From Candidatus Hydrogenedentota bacterium (GTDB lineage: Bacteria; Hydrogenedentota; Hydrogenedentia; Hydrogenedentales; JAJRTN01), in assembly GCA_024278275.1 (NCBI GenBank), contig JAJRTN010000114.1, positions 1 through 64,000 on the forward strand: a stretch of DNA of 64,000 bases, written 5' to 3'. Made by a program: the position numbers and the translations under genes. Positions 54,494-64,000 of this stretch are shown in pieces; position 1 is the first letter of the stretch; every line of letters starts with the position of its first letter. Below the pieces are notes generated by a model, which saw only the letters and a list, made by a program, of their open reading frames with translations, was not told where the DNA came from and ran no database searches.

Positions 54494-54851
54494 GGGGGCG
54501 ACATGGTCTCGACGGGGGTGAAAGAGGCATTGGTTGCGTGCCGAGGACCCCGGTGGCCTCGTAAAAAACCGGGAACAAACACAATTGCCAACAACGAAAT
54601 GGCACTTGCCGCCTAAACTCAGGCAGCACGTTCTCACCTTGACCGCCTGCTAGGGGATGAGAGCGACGACAGCGGGCCTCGCCCAAGGTGACGGTGGAGC
54701 ACCCCGACGCGAGTACGATCTCCACCTAGCGGCCCCGGAAAGCGAGCCTGACGCGTTCCACGGGTGGCGAATCTCAAAAGACGGGCTACGCACGTAGAAG
54801 CCAGTGCCGACGCACTTCCGGACGCGGGTTCGATTCCCGCCGCCTCCACCA
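54494..54851 (+). ncRNA. ssrA: tmRNA
   Basis: The 358-base RNA rescues stalled ribosomes by trans-translation. Its 5' end GGGGGCG pairs with CGCCTCC before an encoded CCA (one G-U pair), and the T-arm GCGGGTTCGATTCCCGC is intact. The tag frame appears to read GTNTIANNEMALAA and stop (TAA), ending in the expected ALAA degron, with the resume codon probably the GGA near 54571. The 5' start GGGGGCGACATGGTCTCGAC is typical. The 3' end doubles as the integration site of the element to its right. Confidence 0.95.
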
Positions 54852-55874
54852 TTCTTGCATCTGAACTAAGTTGTTGGCGTCGCTTGATTTAGGCGGGAGC
54901 CCTTTGGGCTGCTGATGGGGGTGGGCCACAAAATGGCCACATGTTTTCTCCGGATGGATACGGTCTCCGACCGTCTCGACGACATCGGAAAGACGCGAAT
55001 CGCGGACTTGAGCGTAGATGTTCATCGTCAAGTCTGGCGTTGAGTGCCGCGCCAGCGACTGGGCTTCTTTTACCGTCGCGCCCGCCTCAATAACGAGTGT
55101 GACATAGACGGCCCTGAAGGAGTGGAAGTCTACCTTTCCTTCCGGCGTGGTTTTCGTAATGCCGGCCAACTTCAGGTCTTTGTCGAGTTCCCGGGCTGGG
55201 TGAGACGGGACATAGACGAGGGCATCATCGCGCCTCATCCTTTCAGTGTGGTGACTCAACCTCGCCACAAGCCATCTGGGCAGGGGCTGGAATCCTGGTT
55301 TCCGGTTCTTGGTCCACGCTGCCTCCAAGAGGAGCCCTCCGCGACCTTCGTCAAAATGCGACTTCCGAAGCGCAGCCAACTCTCCCGCACGCAACCCCGT
55401 ACAGATGGCAAGCTCATAGAGCAGTCGCCGGTCAGGCTCACAGTTCTCGAGAATATCCTCAAGTTCCTCAGACGTCAGCACTCGACGAGTGCTCTGAGGG
55501 GTAGTATCGAATGCTGCGAGCATCCTGAGGGGATCGGAATCGAGGTATCCCCGTTTAACACACCAATCGCAAAAGGCCGCAATGCCGTCAGCGTAATTGG
55601 TGAGTGTCTTTCCAGTCTTCCCGCTCCTGTGCAGCTTCCTCAGCACCTTCTCGACACGAGGAAGAACACCGGAGAGGTCCGCGAGCTCTTTCAAGCCAAG
55701 TTGCTCCTCCCAAAACTCCAGATACGTCTTACGCATCCGCGCGTGGCCCTTTCCCCAGGGGTGCCCGCCCCGGCCGCCCTGCGTATTACCCCAGGCAAGG
55801 TACTCCTCTACAGCCTCGCGGAATGAGAGATCTTCCCCGGAAGGAACGGGCGGAGGCGCGTAACCGAGTTTCAT
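54786..55874 (-). CDS. Tyrosine recombinase (integrase), catalytic part
   Basis: The 362-residue frame has a core-binding domain (about 15-115) and a catalytic domain with the Arg in TGLRAGELAAL, the HxxR in HSFRAVYV, a second His in LARHSTPDLT and the nucleophilic Tyr in MNIYAQV. It should catalyse insertion and excision at ssrA. It lacks the N-terminal arm-binding domain, which lies in the same frame just upstream, after a TAA codon (55887-55889). The last ~20 residues (WWRRRESNPRPEV region) are read from the antisense of the tmRNA 3' end. Confidence 0.88.
   Translation of the reverse strand: MKLGYAPPPVPSGEDLSFREAVEEYLAWGNTQGGRGGHPWGKGHARMRKTYLEFWEEQLGLKELADLSGVLPRVEKVLRKLHRSGKTGKTLTNYADGIAAFCDWCVKRGYLDSDPLRMLAAFDTTPQSTRRVLTSEELEDILENCEPDRRLLYELAICTGLRAGELAALRKSHFDEGRGGLLLEAAWTKNRKPGFQPLPRWLVARLSHHTERMRRDDALVYVPSHPARELDKDLKLAGITKTTPEGKVDFHSFRAVYVTLVIEAGATVKEAQSLARHSTPDLTMNIYAQVRDSRLSDVVETVGDRIHPEKTCGHFVAHPHQQPKGLPPKSSDANNLVQMQEWWRRRESNPRPEVRRHWLLRA
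54824..54851. other. Attachment site (left junction) of the ssrA-integrated element
   Basis: The tmRNA T-arm and acceptor end lie directly beside an integrase gene pointing at them, the usual arrangement for elements inserted in ssrA. The integrase frame ends inside the tmRNA gene. The matching right junction was not found and should lie beyond 64000. Confidence 0.7.
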
Positions 55875-55886
55875 CCTTCGATGCTC

Positions 55887-56036
55887 TTACTCAAGCTTAT
55901 TGGCCATGGCCAGGGTTTCCTTCTTGCTCGGCGTGCCGGTGAAGAACTTCCGGTCACCTCGCCAATCCCTGTACCACCCCTCAAAGTGCCGCCGTGGTTT
56001 CCCGTTGCGGCTCTTTCGCTTCCTTACGCCAGCCAT
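55887..56036 (-). pseudogene. Arm-binding domain of the integrase, cut off by an in-frame stop
   Basis: A 49-codon frame with AAGGAG 8 bases upstream encodes a small basic domain (RRHFEGWYRDWRGDRKFFTG then SKKETLAMANKLE), matching the N-terminal arm-type DNA-binding domain of tyrosine integrases. It ends at TAA. The next codons (EHRR, then the ATG at 55874) continue in the same frame into the integrase, so the two were one gene. It could be a real nonsense mutation, a recoded stop or a sequence error. Confidence 0.8.
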
Positions 56037-56038
56037 GC

Positions 56039-56227
56039 CTACGGCTCCTTTCGCCAAGGTTTCATCAGGAGCTGCGGAACAGTGAGCCCCTCAGATTCTG
56101 CCTTTCTCTGAAGGGCATCGAGTTCCGCCTTCGTCATGCGAACACGGACGATTTCCGTCTTCTTCGCCGCACCTAGCGGCGGTCGTCCTATGCGCTTCGA
56201 AGGTCTAGCTTTCCTTGTTCTTGCCAT
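56039..56227 (-). CDS. Small basic protein, probable ribbon-helix-helix/CopG-like
   Basis: The 62-residue protein is rich in Lys and Arg at its N-terminus, followed by EIVRVRMTKAELDALQRKAE, which resembles an RHH DNA-binding strand-helix unit. It ends 2 bases before the integrase arm-domain ATG, so it is probably translated with it. It may control integrase expression or excision. Confidence 0.6.
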   Translation of the reverse strand: MARTRKARPSKRIGRPPLGAAKKTEIVRVRMTKAELDALQRKAESEGLTVPQLLMKPWRKEP

Positions 56228-56258
56228 GAGGGCAGTATGCTTTATGTGGCCTCATAAG

Positions 56259-56579
56259 TCAACCCTTCGCCCGAGCGAACTTGCGGGCCTCAGCCGCCAA
56301 TTGGTCTTCGATGTGGCTGATGATGACGTCCACGGTCCAAGTGTTCTTTCCCAAGAACCGAACAGGCCGGGGCAACTCGCCGCGCTCAACCGCGCGTTTG
56401 ATTGTCTCCCGGCAGCCCTTGCCCAACAGACGAGCCAAACCCACCTCTGTTATCAAAGTTCTTGGTGGGAGCAAAGCCAAGTCTTCATAGATCCCTTCTG
56501 CCTCTGCCTTGGGCTTGTTCCCATCCAGATTCGAATCCGGAGTCTCTAAGCATCGAAGTGTTTGAGTTTCCACTGCCAT
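56259..56579 (-). CDS. Probable AlpA/excisionase-like HTH protein
   Basis: About 106 residues. The central part LITEVGLARLLGKGCRETIKRAVERGELPRPVRF is a MerR/AlpA-type winged helix: a HTH followed by a GxLPxP-like wing (cut here to key residues VGLARLLGK and GELPRPVRF). Small proteins of this type serve as excisionases or regulators in integrative elements. ATG 56579 is assumed; an upstream TTG at 56627 is possible. No strong ribosome-binding site is visible. Confidence 0.6.
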   Translation of the reverse strand: MAVETQTLRCLETPDSNLDGNKPKAEAEGIYEDLALLPPRTLITEVGLARLLGKGCRETIKRAVERGELPRPVRFLGKNTWTVDVIISHIEDQLAAEARKFARAKG

Positions 56580-56672
56580 AGCGACGGTCCCAGTCCTGGT
56601 CCCACACCACTGTTCCTCATGGCTCAAGTCATGCAGCTATTCTGTGCGTTAATTCGCCCGGTGGTCGTGCGA

Positions 56673-57047
56673 TTACAAATCTTCCTCAACAGGCAGCACC
56701 TGAACCACATTGGCAAAGACCATGTCGTTAGAGTTCTTCTTGTGCTTGATGACTACCCGACAGTCTTCGTGAAGCAGGTCATCTGTGGTGATTTCTTCGC
56801 CTACCTCAGGTATACGGCCCAATATGGCAGCCGCCCAACGACCCAGCTTCGTGTTTTCGGTGAGCTTTTTGCTCGCTATCCCTGACACCACGCAGCCATC
56901 GTAGTCGTCTTCTGGGAGCAACCTGAAATCGATGTGGATCATCGCCCCATGCGGCCCCATCTTCTCGTACATGTTAATAGGCCTCGCCAGGTACTCACCC
57001 TCGGATACGAGTTCAGTGGCTTCCTCAACAACCAGCTTGCATGTCAT
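56673..57047 (-). CDS. Hypothetical protein of the integrative element
   Basis: The 124-residue acidic protein (MTCKLVVEEATELVSEGEYL at the start) has no motif that I recognise. A GGA-containing site lies 9 bases before ATG 57047; ATG 57068 is an alternative. Its place among small accessory genes of the element suggests a phage- or plasmid-like role. An 11-base direct repeat (TTTGTGGCTAA twice) lies just upstream at 57068-57089. Confidence 0.5.
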   Translation of the reverse strand: MTCKLVVEEATELVSEGEYLARPINMYEKMGPHGAMIHIDFRLLPEDDYDGCVVSGIASKKLTENTKLGRWAAAILGRIPEVGEEITTDDLLHEDCRVVIKHKKNSNDMVFANVVQVLPVEEDL

Positions 57048-57359
57048 GACACTGTTTCCTTTCTTCATTTGTGGCTAATTTGTGGCTAATGCCGTTCCTC
57101 ATCTATCCTTATTGCGGTAGAGACAGCCCTTTTCTTTCAGTTCTGTCCGGAGAAGCAGGCCAAAATCCGCGAGCGCCACAGCGCTGAACGACGTCTTTCA
57201 GTTCTCGTAGAACTCCGCGCAACCAGGTCTGGGAATGCGGGCCTTCCTGCAGTCTCGGGTCACAAGACTGCACGCCTGACGCCGGCCGGCGGTATTGCTG
57301 CAATACGTACAGACGGGCCCCACTGATCCGTCGCCCGATAGCGAGGATGTCGGCCTCGG

Positions 57360-58744
57360 CCTGTCAAGCCATTTGCTAATCTTACCGTAGGGGGTATCGT
57401 CACGCCATTTACTTTCTTACCACGAGGATGAGGCTTGGGCTTTGGTTTGGTTGTATCGCCCTCCCCGCGGGGAGGGCGATTGCTTCTCTAGTACAGGGGT
57501 TTTCGGTTTCTCTTTTTGGGTGTCGATTCGGAGCAATGCGCCGAGTGTTTTATCCACGTCTTTGGAAAGCAGGAAGGGGTCTGTGTCGGCGCGTTGGCGG
57601 CGTAGCGCCTGGACGGCCTTGGGGAGCGGTTTGCCGGCATGAAAGGCGATGAGGCGGTCCAGGGGTGTTTGGGCTTGGTCGTAGCGCCGGGTAATGCGTG
57701 CGCCGATGCGCAGCTTTTCTTTGAGCTTCACGCAGGGTTGGTAGAGGTTCATCATGGCGCCCCACGGCCCGGTGTAGAGGGCTTGTATGGCCTCGAGTTG
57801 GGCGGGGGTATCGTAGCGGTCCCATCCCACGAGTTTGCGCACATGGGTCCAGTTTTTTTGCTCGATGTGGGCGTTGTCGTCTTTCTTGTAGGGGCGGCTC
57901 CGGGTGAACTGGATGCGGTGCTTTTTGCAGTACCGAAGCAGGTGATGGTTGATGAATTCCGAGCCGTTGTCCGAGTCGATGCCCTTGAGCGCAAAGGGCA
58001 GCGCTTGGCGGATATCCTCGAGCGCACGGACGACGCCCGTCTCGCCTTTGCCCATGATGGCACGGGTTTCGCACCATCCGGTATGGATGTCGGTCACATT
58101 GAGTGAATAGACGAATTCGCCCGAGGCGTGGGGGCCTGAGTGCGAAACCAAGTCGATCTCGCAATAGCCAGGGTCCTCGACATCCCAGTGGTCCGTCTTG
58201 ATGGGGATGTGCTGCTTCAAGAGCGAACCCGGTTTCGTACGGCCATAGATGCGTCCTTTGAGTTGTCGCTTCTTATCCTGCAAGCGCCGGTCCATTTGGC
58301 GCGGACTCATCTGAAGCAACGCGCGCTCCACCTCGGGCGTTAGCCCCCGGATGTGGCCGCGCGCCCACGGCAGCCAGTGGGGCAGCAGGGCTTTGAGCCG
58401 TGTCGACCAGGGATAGCCCGCCGCTTTCCAGATCGTAGCCAAGACGCGTACGCTGGCGGCCGAATAGGTCGGCCCACGCCGACGCCGTGCGGCCCCAGGC
58501 ACCGGCGTATCCGCCGGTTGCCCAAGCAGCCTAATCGCGTACTTACGGTGATACCCCGTTTGCCTGCAAAATTCATCCAGCAAACGCGACCGCTTGGCCC
58601 TATCTGCCTTCCGATACCGCTTTTGATACATCTTCAACCCATTCAAAACGCGTTCTCCTGCCACCAGCCACCCTCCCCACTACGGTAAGATCGCAAATGG
58701 CAAGACGATACTACGCTCGGTAAGATCTTAGATGGCTTGATTCG
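57360..58744 (-). mobile_element. Insertion sequence in nrdG (1385 bp, DDE transposase)
   Basis: The ends are long imperfect inverted repeats (about 62 bases), each holding two copies of a GCCAT-TCTTACC type motif (left 57364-57421, right 58680-58740). A 5-bp target duplication, CTCGG, flanks it (57355-57359 and 58745-58749). A single transposase gene fills it, with its stop codon inside the left repeat. Confidence 0.85.
57417..58664 (-). CDS. DDE-type transposase (integrase-core family)
   Basis: The 415-residue transposase has an N-terminal helical HTH region (RRKYAIRLLG-type, about 25-60) and an rve-like catalytic core. The candidate triad is Asp in CEIDLVSHSG, Asp in GIDSDNGSEF and Glu in DDNAHIEQKNW. 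It is of the kind found in IS481-like or ISNCY groups; I cannot assign the family surely. Length and frame look intact, so it may be active. Confidence 0.85.
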   Translation of the reverse strand: MAGERVLNGLKMYQKRYRKADRAKRSRLLDEFCRQTGYHRKYAIRLLGQPADTPVPGAARRRRGPTYSAASVRVLATIWKAAGYPWSTRLKALLPHWLPWARGHIRGLTPEVERALLQMSPRQMDRRLQDKKRQLKGRIYGRTKPGSLLKQHIPIKTDHWDVEDPGYCEIDLVSHSGPHASGEFVYSLNVTDIHTGWCETRAIMGKGETGVVRALEDIRQALPFALKGIDSDNGSEFINHHLLRYCKKHRIQFTRSRPYKKDDNAHIEQKNWTHVRKLVGWDRYDTPAQLEAIQALYTGPWGAMMNLYQPCVKLKEKLRIGARITRRYDQAQTPLDRLIAFHAGKPLPKAVQALRRQRADTDPFLLSKDVDKTLGALLRIDTQKEKPKTPVLEKQSPSPRGGRYNQTKAQASSSW

Positions 58745-59250
58745 CTCGGTGAGTTGTGGGACAACAGTTGTGCGAAACTCGTAGGTGACCGGGCCAGAAA
58801 GTACGAGACCTATGCTCTTGTCAATCGAATCGTGGTCCACGGAGACGCCGCAAATCGAGTCGTACTTCTCGGGTGGGGCCTTAACGTCCATAGCCACATA
58901 GTCCACGAGGCCCGCGTCAAGCAACAGGGCCAGGACCGTGGGATGTGTGCCGTTGGTGTCAAGTTTGACACGGTAGCCCAGTTCCCGTATTTCGTGGATG
59001 AAATCGGCCAGTCCCGGCTGGAGCGTAGGTTCCCCTCCGCTCAAGACCACCGCGTCAAGGAGGCCTTGGCGTTCGCGGAGATACTCAAGCACCTGAGAGA
59101 CCGGTGTTGTCCCAGCGTAATTTCCGTCGTTGCCCAGGAGCATGCGGTTGTGGCAATAGAAGCAGTCGAGATTGCAGCCCGGCGTGAAAACGACTGCTGC
59201 GATCTTGCCGGGGTAGTCAACGAAGGACGTTCTCTGGATTGCTGCTATCT

Positions 59251-61359
59251 TCATAACGCAATCCCGCCCGTCTGAGGTTTTTCAGGATCGCGAAACGCAA
59301 CCCGGTCCGCGTACTCTTGTTTCTTCCCCTCGTTGTAGTCCGCCACCGGCCTGAGATATCCCGTTACGCGCGACCAGACCTCGGTTTCGGCCCCGCAGCG
59401 AGGGCAGGAAAAGTGCTCGCCCTTGAGGTAGCCGTGACGCGCGCAAATGCTGAAGGTGGGCGTAATGGACAGATACGGCAGCTTGTACTTGGTGAAGATT
59501 CTCTGGATGAGCCGTTTGGCGACAGCTGTGTCCTCGATGCTTTCGCCGAGGTAGAGATGAAGCACGGTGCCACCCGTGTACAGAGACTGCAGTTCGTCCT
59601 GTAACTCGAGTACCTCAAACACGTCATCAGAATACCCCACTGGCAGCTGGCTTGAGTTGGTGTAGTACGGCGTGCCGTTGCCGGTAGTCTTGATGTCGGG
59701 GTACCTGGCCTTATCCAGCCGCGCGAGACGATAGGCCGTGCTTTCCGCCGGCGTTGCTTCAAGGTTGTAGAGGTGACCCGTCTCGCCCTGGACATCGCCC
59801 AGGATACCGCGCAGATAACGCAGGATTCGCAGGGCGAAACCCTGGCCTTCCGGCGTGCCGAGATCCTTCTCGAGGAGGTTCAGCACGGCTTCGTTCATAC
59901 CAACGATGCCGATGGTACTGAAATGATTAGACCAGTAGTGGCCAGCCTTCTGCTTTATGCCGCGCAGGTAGTTCCTCGAATAAGGATAGAGCCCTTCCTC
60001 GGTCTGAACCTCGATGACCTTGCGCTTGATCTCCAGAGCGGCCACACCGATCCGGACCAGCCGGCACAGACGCTCCTTGAACTCGTGCTCTGTCTTGGAG
60101 AGATATCCAATGCGGGGGAGGTTGATCGTGAACACCCCGATGGAGCCGGTGAGGGGGTTGCTGCCGAAAAGGCCCCCACCTCGACGCCGCAACTCAGTCG
60201 TGTCCAGGCGCAGGCGGCAGCACATGGACACGGCTTCTTCCGGGGAAAGGTCCGAATTGACATAATTCGCGAAGTAGGGGATCCCGTACTTGCACGTGAT
60301 CCCCATGAACGCCTCGACGGCCGGCAACTCCCAGTCAAAGTCCTTGGTGATGTTGATCGTGGGGATCGGGAACGTGAATACACGTCCTTTCGCATCCCCC
60401 TCCATCATCACGTCACAGAACGCGCGGCTAAACATGTCCATCTCCGCCTGGAATTCGCCGTAGGTGGCGCTGATTAGCTCGCCCCCGATAATCGCGGGCG
60501 TGTTCTTCAACGTCGCCGGTACCGTGATGTCAAACGTCAGATTGGAGAATGGACACTGAAACCCCACGCGCGTCGGGATGTTCAGGTTGAAGACGAATTC
60601 CTGGAGCGCCTGTTTGACCTGGTCATGGGTCATTCCGTCGTAGCGGATAAACGGTGCACAGTACGTGTCGAAACTGCCCCAAGCCTGGGCCCCGGCGGTC
60701 TCCCCCTGCGTCGTGAAGGTTGAGTTGATGACTTGGCCCAAGAACGACCGCAAATGCTTGGCCGGCCGACTTTCCACTTTTCCGGGGGCGCCACCGAACC
60801 CTTCCAGCAGTAATTGGCAAAGGTCCCACCCCGTACAGTACGGTCCGAAGAAGCCGAGATCATGGATGTGGGCGGAGCCGTTCTCATGGGCCTCGCGGAC
60901 TTCGACAGGGTATATTTCGTGAAGGCAGTAGTTCTTTGTGAAGAACTCGCGTACGTAGTTGTTGAGCCCGTTTATGCTCTTCTGAGCATTGGCGTTTTCT
61001 TTGACGCGCCAGTCCCGGTCCCCGAGGTAATCCGAGAACATATCGATCGTGGCTCCGATAAGGGCGTTGAGGTTCCTGGCGCTCGCACGTTTTTCCCGAT
61101 ACAGAATATAGGCCTTGGACGTGCGGGCGTGGCCGTTCTCGATAAGCACTTTCTCCACAAGGTCCTGAATCTGTTCAACTTCGGGGATGCGATTCGCGAA
61201 CTGCTCCTCAGCGAGGCGAATGACCTCCTTACAAAGGTTTTCCGCTCTGGCGAAGTCGTTGCCGCCGCAAGCCGAGGCAGCTTTGAAGATAGCGCACGTG
61301 ACCTTGTCGGGCTGGAACGCTTCAATGCTGCCATCCCGCTTCCTGATTCGCTTAATCAC
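59251..61359 (-). CDS. nrdD: Anaerobic (class III) ribonucleoside-triphosphate reductase
   Basis: NrdD reduces ribonucleotides without oxygen using a glycyl radical. The 702-residue protein has an ATP-cone (IKRIRKRDGSIEAFQPDKV, about 1-95), catalytic barrel segments (HIHDLGFFGPYCTGWDL, NIPTRVGFQCPFSN), a zinc site in the C-terminus (FSCPRCGAETE) and the glycyl-radical loop RVTGYLRP near the end. GTG 61359 is chosen; GGAG lies 7 bases before it. The frame is open to 61701 but that part is not NrdD-like. It overlaps nrdG by 4 bases. With nrdG split, activation depends on another NrdG. Confidence 0.93.
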   Translation of the reverse strand: MIKRIRKRDGSIEAFQPDKVTCAIFKAASACGGNDFARAENLCKEVIRLAEEQFANRIPEVEQIQDLVEKVLIENGHARTSKAYILYREKRASARNLNALIGATIDMFSDYLGDRDWRVKENANAQKSINGLNNYVREFFTKNYCLHEIYPVEVREAHENGSAHIHDLGFFGPYCTGWDLCQLLLEGFGGAPGKVESRPAKHLRSFLGQVINSTFTTQGETAGAQAWGSFDTYCAPFIRYDGMTHDQVKQALQEFVFNLNIPTRVGFQCPFSNLTFDITVPATLKNTPAIIGGELISATYGEFQAEMDMFSRAFCDVMMEGDAKGRVFTFPIPTINITKDFDWELPAVEAFMGITCKYGIPYFANYVNSDLSPEEAVSMCCRLRLDTTELRRRGGGLFGSNPLTGSIGVFTINLPRIGYLSKTEHEFKERLCRLVRIGVAALEIKRKVIEVQTEEGLYPYSRNYLRGIKQKAGHYWSNHFSTIGIVGMNEAVLNLLEKDLGTPEGQGFALRILRYLRGILGDVQGETGHLYNLEATPAESTAYRLARLDKARYPDIKTTGNGTPYYTNSSQLPVGYSDDVFEVLELQDELQSLYTGGTVLHLYLGESIEDTAVAKRLIQRIFTKYKLPYLSITPTFSICARHGYLKGEHFSCPRCGAETEVWSRVTGYLRPVADYNEGKKQEYADRVAFRDPEKPQTGGIAL

Positions 61360-61504
61360 CACAGATCTCCTTTCTGCTTTCCGCCTTGGCGCAATGTGCA
61401 ATGGCTCTGGCTGGCCTCGCGATGTACTTGTGGCTGCCCGATCTGTGTTCGTGTGTAGCATGAAGCTGATACCGGCTACATCGGGGCACCTTCCTTGCCT
61501 GTTG

Positions 61505-63032
61505 TTATTGCGGCAGGATCTGTGGCGTCGTTTCAGGTCTGTTGTGAACATCGGGAGGAGGGGGTGCCGTGAACCGGCGCTGGGGAACTGGCGTCGGGAT
61601 CCAGCCCCCGTAAACTGAGCCAGTGGCAATAACGTCGCTGAGAACCTCATGTTGTTGACAGAGGACGTGGAGGTCCGATGTCTTGACGGATTCGCCCCCA
61701 AATTCCTCCCACCACAATTGGGTCAGGGCGCGCCTGTCGGGAGTTTCGACATCGGCCTCAACGTACATCGCCTCGATATTGCCCAGGAAACCGGGGATTC
61801 CCGACACCTCGAGTATGCCACCCAAGACGGTCGACCAATCCTCGAACGAGCCAAGCGGATCCCCGCGCCAACGAGGGAATCCTTCCTCACACCACGCCAG
61901 GACAAGGGTCAAACATGCCCGCACAAGTTCCGACCTGTGATGCCGCGCCCACGAGAGGAGGTCTTCGTGCCGAAAGTTCTGGCGTAACCACGGCCTGTCC
62001 GTTCGAGGGTCGATTCTGATGCGAACACTCCGCCGCGCAATTTCTAATTTCTAATTTCTAATGTGAAGCGGGGGTTGTTGGCCGTCGCAATCCATACTGC
62101 CTGGTTGTTGAGGGCAAGCATCCGTTTGCTGCCGAGGAGACGATCCGTCGGCTGCGTGGTCGTCAGGACGCTGGCCAAAGCGGGATCATCAAGAGTGCGG
62201 TTCTGGGGAATGTTGTCCAGGAGGATGATAGGGGCACCGGCCACCATAAGGGACGTGAGTTTCTTCCTATTATCCGCCGAACTCGCGCTCAGTGTCGTGG
62301 GTTTGCACGGCTCGCCGATGGTGATGACGGCGACAAGGTCTGCCAACCGCCCCTTCCCGGTGTGGGCGATTCCACTATGTGGAGTGGCGTTGGCGCATCT
62401 TTGATGGCCCGCCGGATAAACGGCAGCACCATCAGGGCCACGGCATGCGCCCGGCTGGCCTCATCCGTGAAAGGGAAATCGCATATAGCCTCCAAAAGCA
62501 ACCTGCGTGCGCCGGCTACGTCGAGTTGCACCGGAATGGAGGTCCTGAGACCGTACGCATCGTGGAAGTACAACTGTTCGTCTTCGTGGTACCCGGGACA
62601 GTCGATCAGGTCAAAGTTCCTGCCGAACACGGGCACAGTGGCTACAGTATTCAGTTCAGGTAAACCCTCGTCCGGATCATCGATGATGGCGTCCAGAATC
62701 CTGCTCGGCGGCGACGAAGGCGTCTCGCCGTTGGTAGTCCTCTTCTTCCAGTCGGCTACCTCAGCGAGGTACTTGAACATACTCCGTTTGGTACAAGGGA
62801 CGATGTGCGGAGCATCACCTTTTCGTACGTCAACAAGGCGAACAAGACGCCCGGCGCTACGAAAGATGACCGGGGGGGCGTTGGCCACTTTCATGACTCT
62901 CAATGCGTGGCGGAGCACGATACGCGGCTGCTCGTCCGTGTAGACCACGGGAAACGCGTCCTCGGCAGGGGATTCCGTCACACCCGGATCTTCTTGGCGT
63001 CCAAAAAGCTGCATGATTCTGTCCTCGCTCAT
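61505..63032 (-). pseudogene. Primase-associated helicase-type ATPase gene broken by two frameshifts
   Basis: Three frames together encode one protein. Part 1 (63032 to about 62350) ends with LHIVESPTPG. Part 2 (about 62350 to 62044) resumes with KGRLADLVAVITIGEP and holds LTSLMVAGAPIILLDNI (Walker B-like) and VWIATANNP, as in phage and plasmid primase-helicase ATPases. Part 3 (about 62046 to 61505) continues ARRSVRIRIDPRTDRPW and GSFEDWSTVLGGILEVSGIP. The first break falls in the P-loop (expected PGTGKG), the second at a TTTCTAA triple repeat. The start is uncertain, as no strong ribosome-binding site is seen. Confidence 0.75.
62041..62061. repeat. Heptanucleotide tandem repeat (TTTCTAA) x 3
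   Basis: Three perfect 7-base units lie inside the ATPase pseudogene. Minus-strand translation through them stops at once. With one unit (or four) the frame would connect FTLE to IARRSVRIRI, the expected continuation. Confidence 0.85.
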
Positions 63033-63081
63033 GTGCAGAAGCCACCGGTTGGCCGCAGCTGTGTGGGTTTCGGGTGGAGCG

Positions 63082-64000
63082 TCACGCGCTCTTCTCCTTG
63101 GTGGCCAGTTTCCTGCCGGAGATCGGGCAAGAAGGCTCGCAGAACTGTTGCACGACGGGTTCTTCACAGCCGCATCCGCGATACTCCTTCAGGTAGGCTC
63201 CCGCAGTCTGCGACCGAACCTCGGTGGGCGTGATTATTCCCTTGCCGTCCGTGGGACGGTTCTTCCGGGACCACTCCAATAGGGTTGCTTCAGCGAGATC
63301 ATAAGGAAGTCCCACCTTCCGCAAATGAACAGCCAGGCGAAAACACGCGACCCGCTGATTCTCTGTAACGCCTTCCTCAAGCATCCGCCTGGCGCATGGC
63401 GGGAGCATCACGGGTGACTGGAAGACGCCCAGAGATACCTGCACCTTGGAAGTGGGGTGTATTCCGACGGCAATGTCATTGATTTCGATAATCTCGTCGA
63501 AAAGCGTTTCAGGAACCAACTCGACACTATCCAGGAAATCCCATTGATTAGGGTAGGGGCGCAACGAAGCTTCAACGTCCACGAAGACCGTTCGGCCCTG
63601 AGGAACAAGACCCCCGAACAACGGCGCATATATGAAATTGCCCCAGGAGCCCGATCCGGGGTCTATCGCGTCCTGTTTGGGGAATATCTCCGTTTCGGGA
63701 TGGTCGATTTCCTCGGTGATGTGGAGGAAGACGGCGCGAGCCTTGGCAGCGTCAACGCCGTCTTCGTCCGCAAAGCCCCATACATGGAACCCTTTGCTCT
63801 TGCTGATCTCGATGTATGCCGAAAGACCATAATGTTTTGCGGCAGACACAAACTCAAGAGGCGCCGTAGGGTCGGCATGGTCAAAATCGGCCACCACGGA
63901 ACGAGTGCGATCCCCAGTCAACAGGTACACGCCATAGGGCTGTCTCCCGGTAAGATGTTTCAGCAGCACCTCGTCGGTGACAGGCTTCTTGACCTGCCAT
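63082..64000 (-). CDS. Archaeo-eukaryotic-type primase (TOTE/PrimPol-like), 5' end beyond window
   Basis: The frame is open to the right edge, so the N-terminus is missing. It reads PVTDEVLLKHLTGRQPYGVY, then the metal site VVADFDH (DxD), a KSKGFHVWGF strand with the catalytic-type His, and GNFIYAPLFGG and PYPNQWDFL, which match AEP primases of the TOTE/PrimPol type. The C-terminus has a Cys-rich part (CGCEEPVVQQFCEPSC) that may bind zinc. It probably synthesises primers for replication of the element. The broken ATPase gene follows 50 bases downstream. Confidence 0.75.
   Translation of the reverse strand, partial: WQVKKPVTDEVLLKHLTGRQPYGVYLLTGDRTRSVVADFDHADPTAPLEFVSAAKHYGLSAYIEISKSKGFHVWGFADEDGVDAAKARAVFLHITEEIDHPETEIFPKQDAIDPGSGSWGNFIYAPLFGGLVPQGRTVFVDVEASLRPYPNQWDFLDSVELVPETLFDEIIEINDIAVGIHPTSKVQVSLGVFQSPVMLPPCARRMLEEGVTENQRVACFRLAVHLRKVGLPYDLAEATLLEWSRKNRPTDGKGIITPTEVRSQTAGAYLKEYRGCGCEEPVVQQFCEPSCPISGRKLATKEKSA

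Follow-up and report, generated by a model that had tools for sequence, protein, structure and literature searches.

The 64,000-nt stretch of DNA analysed here (the window) carries nrdD, which encodes an oxygen-sensitive class III ribonucleotide reductase, and next to it on the same strand nrdG, the gene for its radical-SAM activase. nrdG is interrupted by an insertion sequence (IS). The features of this region, with coordinates in the window, are as follows.

57109..57354, minus strand: 3' part of nrdG (residues 171-251 and stop), separated from its start
57355..57359, no strand: target-site duplication copy 1, CTCGG
57360..58744, minus strand: IS, 1385 bp, with termini that agree with those of its relatives
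57360..57421, no strand: IS end distal to the transposase start, an imperfect inverted repeat that contains a pair of repeated site-like units
57417..58664, minus strand: transposase, 415 aa, with an rve domain (PF00665) and D171-D232-(35)-E268
58643..59254, minus strand: open frame as it stands, 170 native and 33 IS-encoded residues (203 aa)
58683..58744, no strand: IS end adjoining the transposase start, the matching inverted repeat
58745..58749, no strand: target-site duplication copy 2, CTCGG
58745..59254, minus strand: 5' part of nrdG (residues 1-170 of 251), retaining CX3CX2C, GGE, KLDTNG and FRTT
59251..61401, minus strand: nrdD, class III reductase with an ATP cone and an intact RVTGYL glycyl motif (putative start; the longest frame extends to 61701)

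nrdG starts at 59254 and overlaps nrdD by 4 bases (59251-59254). Foreign DNA entered after codon 170 and split the gene into 170 codons (58745-59254) and 81 codons plus the stop (57109-57354), with exactly 1385 bp of IS between the two copies of CTCGG. When the flanks are joined with a single CTCGG, one 251-aa NrdG2 frame runs through PQLTEADILAIG and ends at 57109. The initial annotation had described both the CTCGG copies around a 1385-bp IS and the frame restored by removing the IS with one copy, and our analysis agrees with it to the base (57355-57359 and 58745-58749). With the local base composition, two fixed ends would match over 5 bp by chance with a probability of about 0.0011. We also considered a longer or shifted target duplication and found nothing better that was flush with the IS ends. 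Taking TCAAGCC..GGCTTGA alone as the IS ends leaves unequal flanks.

The joined NrdG aligns without a gap at the junction with 11 relatives, all from one family of the order and 10 of them with a complete 3' end (PQLTEADILAIGRRISGARLYVLQQYRRP vs. e.g. PQLSYDDVLAIARRIRGARRYVLQQYRRP). In two related elements (L189 and L190, described below), nrdG is uninterrupted and encodes 241 and 243 aa, respectively. Their products are 57 and 62% identical to the joined NrdG over residues 1-234, again with no gap at the junction. The interpretation of the initial annotation depended on flanks that rebuild NrdG when compared to homologues, and these flanks do. Even on its own, the 5' part reaches 204 bits against the NrdG2 model TIGR02495 (cut-off 131) and covers model positions 2-178 of 193. 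Together with the CX3CX2C motif (C27, C31 and C34) and the neighboring nrdD, this score identifies the gene as nrdG of the NrdG2 type. We fetched 30 canonical nrdD loci from other genomes of the order, and nrdG is adjacent to nrdD in every one. As in other NrdG2 systems, a radical-SAM activase gene lies beside nrdD, and both its 5' part and its homologues match the family. In contrast to those systems, an IS here breaks the gene at residue 170 of the 251.

The insertion sequence

The transposase has the catalytic triad D171, D232 and E268, with 35 residues separating the last two, and the triad is invariant in the four transposases aligned. The ends of the IS are imperfect inverted repeats of approximately 60 bp, each with two repeated site-like units. 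A transposase gene, inverted-repeat ends and a target duplication are all present, as in insertion sequences generally. Relatives of the IS are encoded across many phyla. We fetched 80 of these loci, and both ends could be read by motif in 23. The relatives share the termini CG(A/T)AT.. and ..TTGACAGG (..GACAGG or similar), and 11 of the 23 have identical 5-bp flanks flush with these ends. The shared termini and flush duplications support both the boundaries that we assign to the IS and its 5-bp duplication.

Judging by its sequence, the IS is IS481/IS3-like, and we leave it unassigned to a family. It resembles IS481/IS3-type elements in its integrase core, DD(35)E spacing, single transposase gene, inverted repeats and short target duplication. 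We did not file it as IS481 because it scores 45.1 bits against the NCBIfam IS481 model (NF033577), well below the cut-off of 224; its score against the NCBIfam IS3 model is 36 bits (cut-off 160). The DD(35)E triad is that of IS481. Target duplications of IS481 members are mostly 6 bp, with a range of 2-15 (PMC10045372). The 5-bp duplication of the IS group described here is within that range and differs from the common length. The related IS481EU elements have TGT..ACA-type ends (PMC10045372), in contrast to the CGAAT../..GACAGG ends of this group.

Two other properties of this group of elements may be of interest. In many of the relatives (loci L096-L138), TCAA immediately precedes the 5-bp duplication on the transposase-start side, likely a target preference; the corresponding bases in nrdG are CTCA. 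In addition, a perfect 13-bp inverted repeat without a spacer is present at 57455-57480, near the 3' end of the transposase gene, and some relatives have G+C-rich hairpins in a similar position. The repeat may be a terminator or a shield from outside transcription.

The genome assembly is a draft of 200 contigs, and in such an assembly the IS could have been placed within nrdG by a chimeric join. A chimera is not expected to produce a 5-bp duplication flush with the ends that the relatives use, nor to leave the IS flanked by both parts of a single gene, and we regard this explanation as extremely improbable. On sequence grounds, we conclude that transposition placed the IS between codons 170 and 171 of nrdG and duplicated 5 bp of the target. 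Insertion of an IS into a gene is an ordinary, everyday type of event.

Age of the insertion and fate of the activase

Both parts of nrdG are free of stops and frameshifts and have no sign of decay. Dividing identity after the break by identity before it gives 0.735 for this gene, a value within the range of ten intact homologues (0.645-0.855). Compared with the two nearest elements, the part beyond the break has identities of 0.41 and 0.49; the value for the intact pair is 0.51. Because both parts are undegraded and their similarity to relatives is like that of intact genes, we infer that the insertion is recent relative to the scale of gene decay. This supports, as far as it can be tested, the earlier view that the halves are well preserved and the insertion therefore recent. 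The identical 5-base copies themselves provide little information about age.

Undegraded halves are also what would be found if only some cells of the population had the insertion, with the assembler retaining the IS version and the other cells keeping an intact nrdG. A draft assembly of this kind may be a population consensus. Against this, the IS is a single copy that was assembled through within one contig, there is no contig with an empty site, and the only match above the NrdG2 cut-off is the interrupted locus itself. We therefore consider a mixed population unlikely. No second full copy of the IS was found in the genome, only remnants that are 56-60% identical in protein.

NrdG forms the glycyl radical of NrdD using S-adenosylmethionine (PMC4493059). 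The 203-aa frame left by the insertion keeps C27, C31, C34, GGE, KLDTNG and FRTT, and 55 of the 57 strongly conserved NrdG positions are before the break. What the break removes, judging from an AlphaFold model of an intact homologue, is a helix (169-178) and a strand (185-189), and with them Gln189, which is conserved in 30 of 30 homologues. The complete homologues, even the shortest (193 aa), all extend beyond residue 189. Thus, the gene in its current form lacks the end of the NrdG2 core. In an AlphaFold model of the truncated protein, most of residues 1-160 are confidently predicted, and the confidence (pLDDT) of the IS-encoded tail drops from about 68 to 32, with a weak strand at 185-189. 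For the truncated model and the intact one alike, the best Foldseek match is pyruvate formate-lyase activase.

We suspect that NrdD is most likely left without its glycyl radical, since the last helix, the last core strand and the invariant Gln189 are lost. Based on sequence comparisons and structure predictions, the truncated NrdG has likely lost its activity or had it strongly reduced. Some activity is conceivable because 55 of the 57 positions are kept and the Foldseek match persists. If the 203-aa protein were still a working activase, then the insertion would be nearly neutral and NrdD active. All the catalytic motifs and most of the core strands are present, the TIGR02495 match extends nearly to the end of the model, and the tail is modelled with a strand, albeit a weak one. 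Also, NrdG of T. maritima is only 183 aa (PMC4493059), and there is no decay in NrdD or in the cut-off part of nrdG. The missing strand and glutamine are nevertheless kept by every complete natural homologue, and the tail that would have to replace them is of foreign origin and predicted with low confidence. We find a working truncated activase quite unlikely.

Could another protein activate NrdD? A search for a second nrdG, as suggested in the initial annotation, found the interrupted locus to be the only place above the curated NrdG2 cut-off in this draft genome, which is 96.2% complete. The next-best match (61 bits) is a 240-aa protein that resembles glycyl-radical activases, in particular those of pyruvate formate-lyase. 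The earlier statement that NrdD is left without its own activase thus holds in that no other NrdG2 scores above the cut-off. It was too strong in that a 203-aa FeS/SAM product might be made and an activase-like protein exists.

NrdD, the host reductases and the integrated element

NrdD has the NRDD domain, the ATP cone and the RVxGYL glycyl motif. It shares 72-76% identity with the NrdD proteins from one family in the order, keeps the glycyl motif and has no signs of decay. The host also has an intact monomeric class II, adenosylcobalamin (B12)-dependent reductase that scores above the curated cut-off (G000:C198:52168-54066), as do most genomes of the order. A search with PF02867 alone had indicated that the host has neither a class I nor a class II reductase. 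That result was wrong because the host enzyme is monomeric, a type that this model misses. Loss of nrdG is probably tolerable given the class II reductase of the host, assuming that this enzyme is sufficient.

A second NrdD-derived protein, of 765 aa, is encoded elsewhere in the genome (G000:C197:35650-37128; L024:8853-11150), beside nrdR (L024:8199-8747). It has an ATP cone, a serine in place of an invariant cysteine of canonical NrdD, and neither the zinc cysteines nor the glycyl loop. Similar divergent NRDD matches occur in most of 60 genomes of the same order, whether or not a canonical NrdD is present. Possibly, this protein is a nucleotide sensor that acts with NrdR.

nrdD and nrdG are part of an integrative element that also includes the following features.

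54494..54851, plus strand: tmRNA gene, the presumed attachment site
54786..55874, minus strand: left-end tyrosine integrase of the element
61505..63167, minus strand: element helicase gene in three frames (62292-63167, 62047-62346 and 61508-61924)
63082..63969, minus strand: archaeo-eukaryotic-type primase (AEP-TOTE)

The integrase adjoins the tmRNA gene, an arrangement that marks an integrative element, and the genes rightward of it include those for the primase, a TrwB-like coupling protein, a kinase and a ThiF protein. We searched the 86.5-kb contig and the rest of the assembly and found neither a second copy of the attachment site nor a far-end direct repeat; the element probably runs past the end of the contig. 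In two other genomes, related elements contain genes for the coupling protein, primase, helicase and nrdD, and nrdG where the contig extends far enough. One of these (L189) is beside tRNA-Met and has its own integrase. L189, L190, L191 and the element described here (54786-64000 onward) form a family with a coupling protein, primase, helicase, nrdD and nrdG, in which the attachment genes vary. Like other integrative elements at tRNA and tmRNA genes, they have a tyrosine integrase that abuts tmRNA here and tRNA-Met in L189. They differ in that a class III reductase pair is conserved within the replication module. Neither nrdD nor the coupling protein of the element had a relative among the viral contigs, in a search with exact peptides of one protein that detects close relatives only. 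A ThiF-like protein (L023:16179-19281) has small neighbors, potentially E2-like and JAB-like, in an arrangement reminiscent of bacterial ubiquitin-like operons; family matching in this region confirmed ThiF only.

The helicase gene is also broken. Its three open reading frames match phrog_10537 in order, and the gene is a single frame in three related elements. One of the breaks is at a 7-bp tandem repeat, ATTTCTA, present in three copies at approximately 62040-62060, and the frameshifts could be assembly errors in the draft. Since both nrdG and the helicase gene are broken, the whole replication and nucleotide module of this element may be in decay and no longer under selection.

Our preferred explanation is as follows. 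An IS of the DD(35)E (retroviral-integrase) type entered nrdG, the downstream gene of an nrdD-nrdG pair on an element integrated beside tmRNA, at codon 170/171 with duplication of 5 bp. The insertion removes the last helix, the last core strand and Gln189 of the activase, and NrdD would then most likely lack its glycyl radical. The class II adenosylcobalamin-dependent reductase, whose gene the host has, would cover for the loss, and with the helicase broken the replication and nucleotide module would be free of selection. We estimate a probability of about 0.85 that insertion, loss of NrdD activation, tolerance through the class II enzyme and release from selection hold together.

The insertion in nrdG can be checked against related uninterrupted genes. 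It suggests that, in a host with its own B12-dependent reductase, the anaerobic reductase pair of a mobile element can be lost. More tentatively, and with the odds against it, the family might carry a class III reductase and its activase as a fixed part of the replication module, and this copy would be a natural knock-out that has lost activase and helicase. If so, DNA synthesis of the element would be freed from the B12-dependent reductase of the host. If it holds up, the broader implication is that nrdD-nrdG accompanies the primase and helicase in a family of integrative elements.
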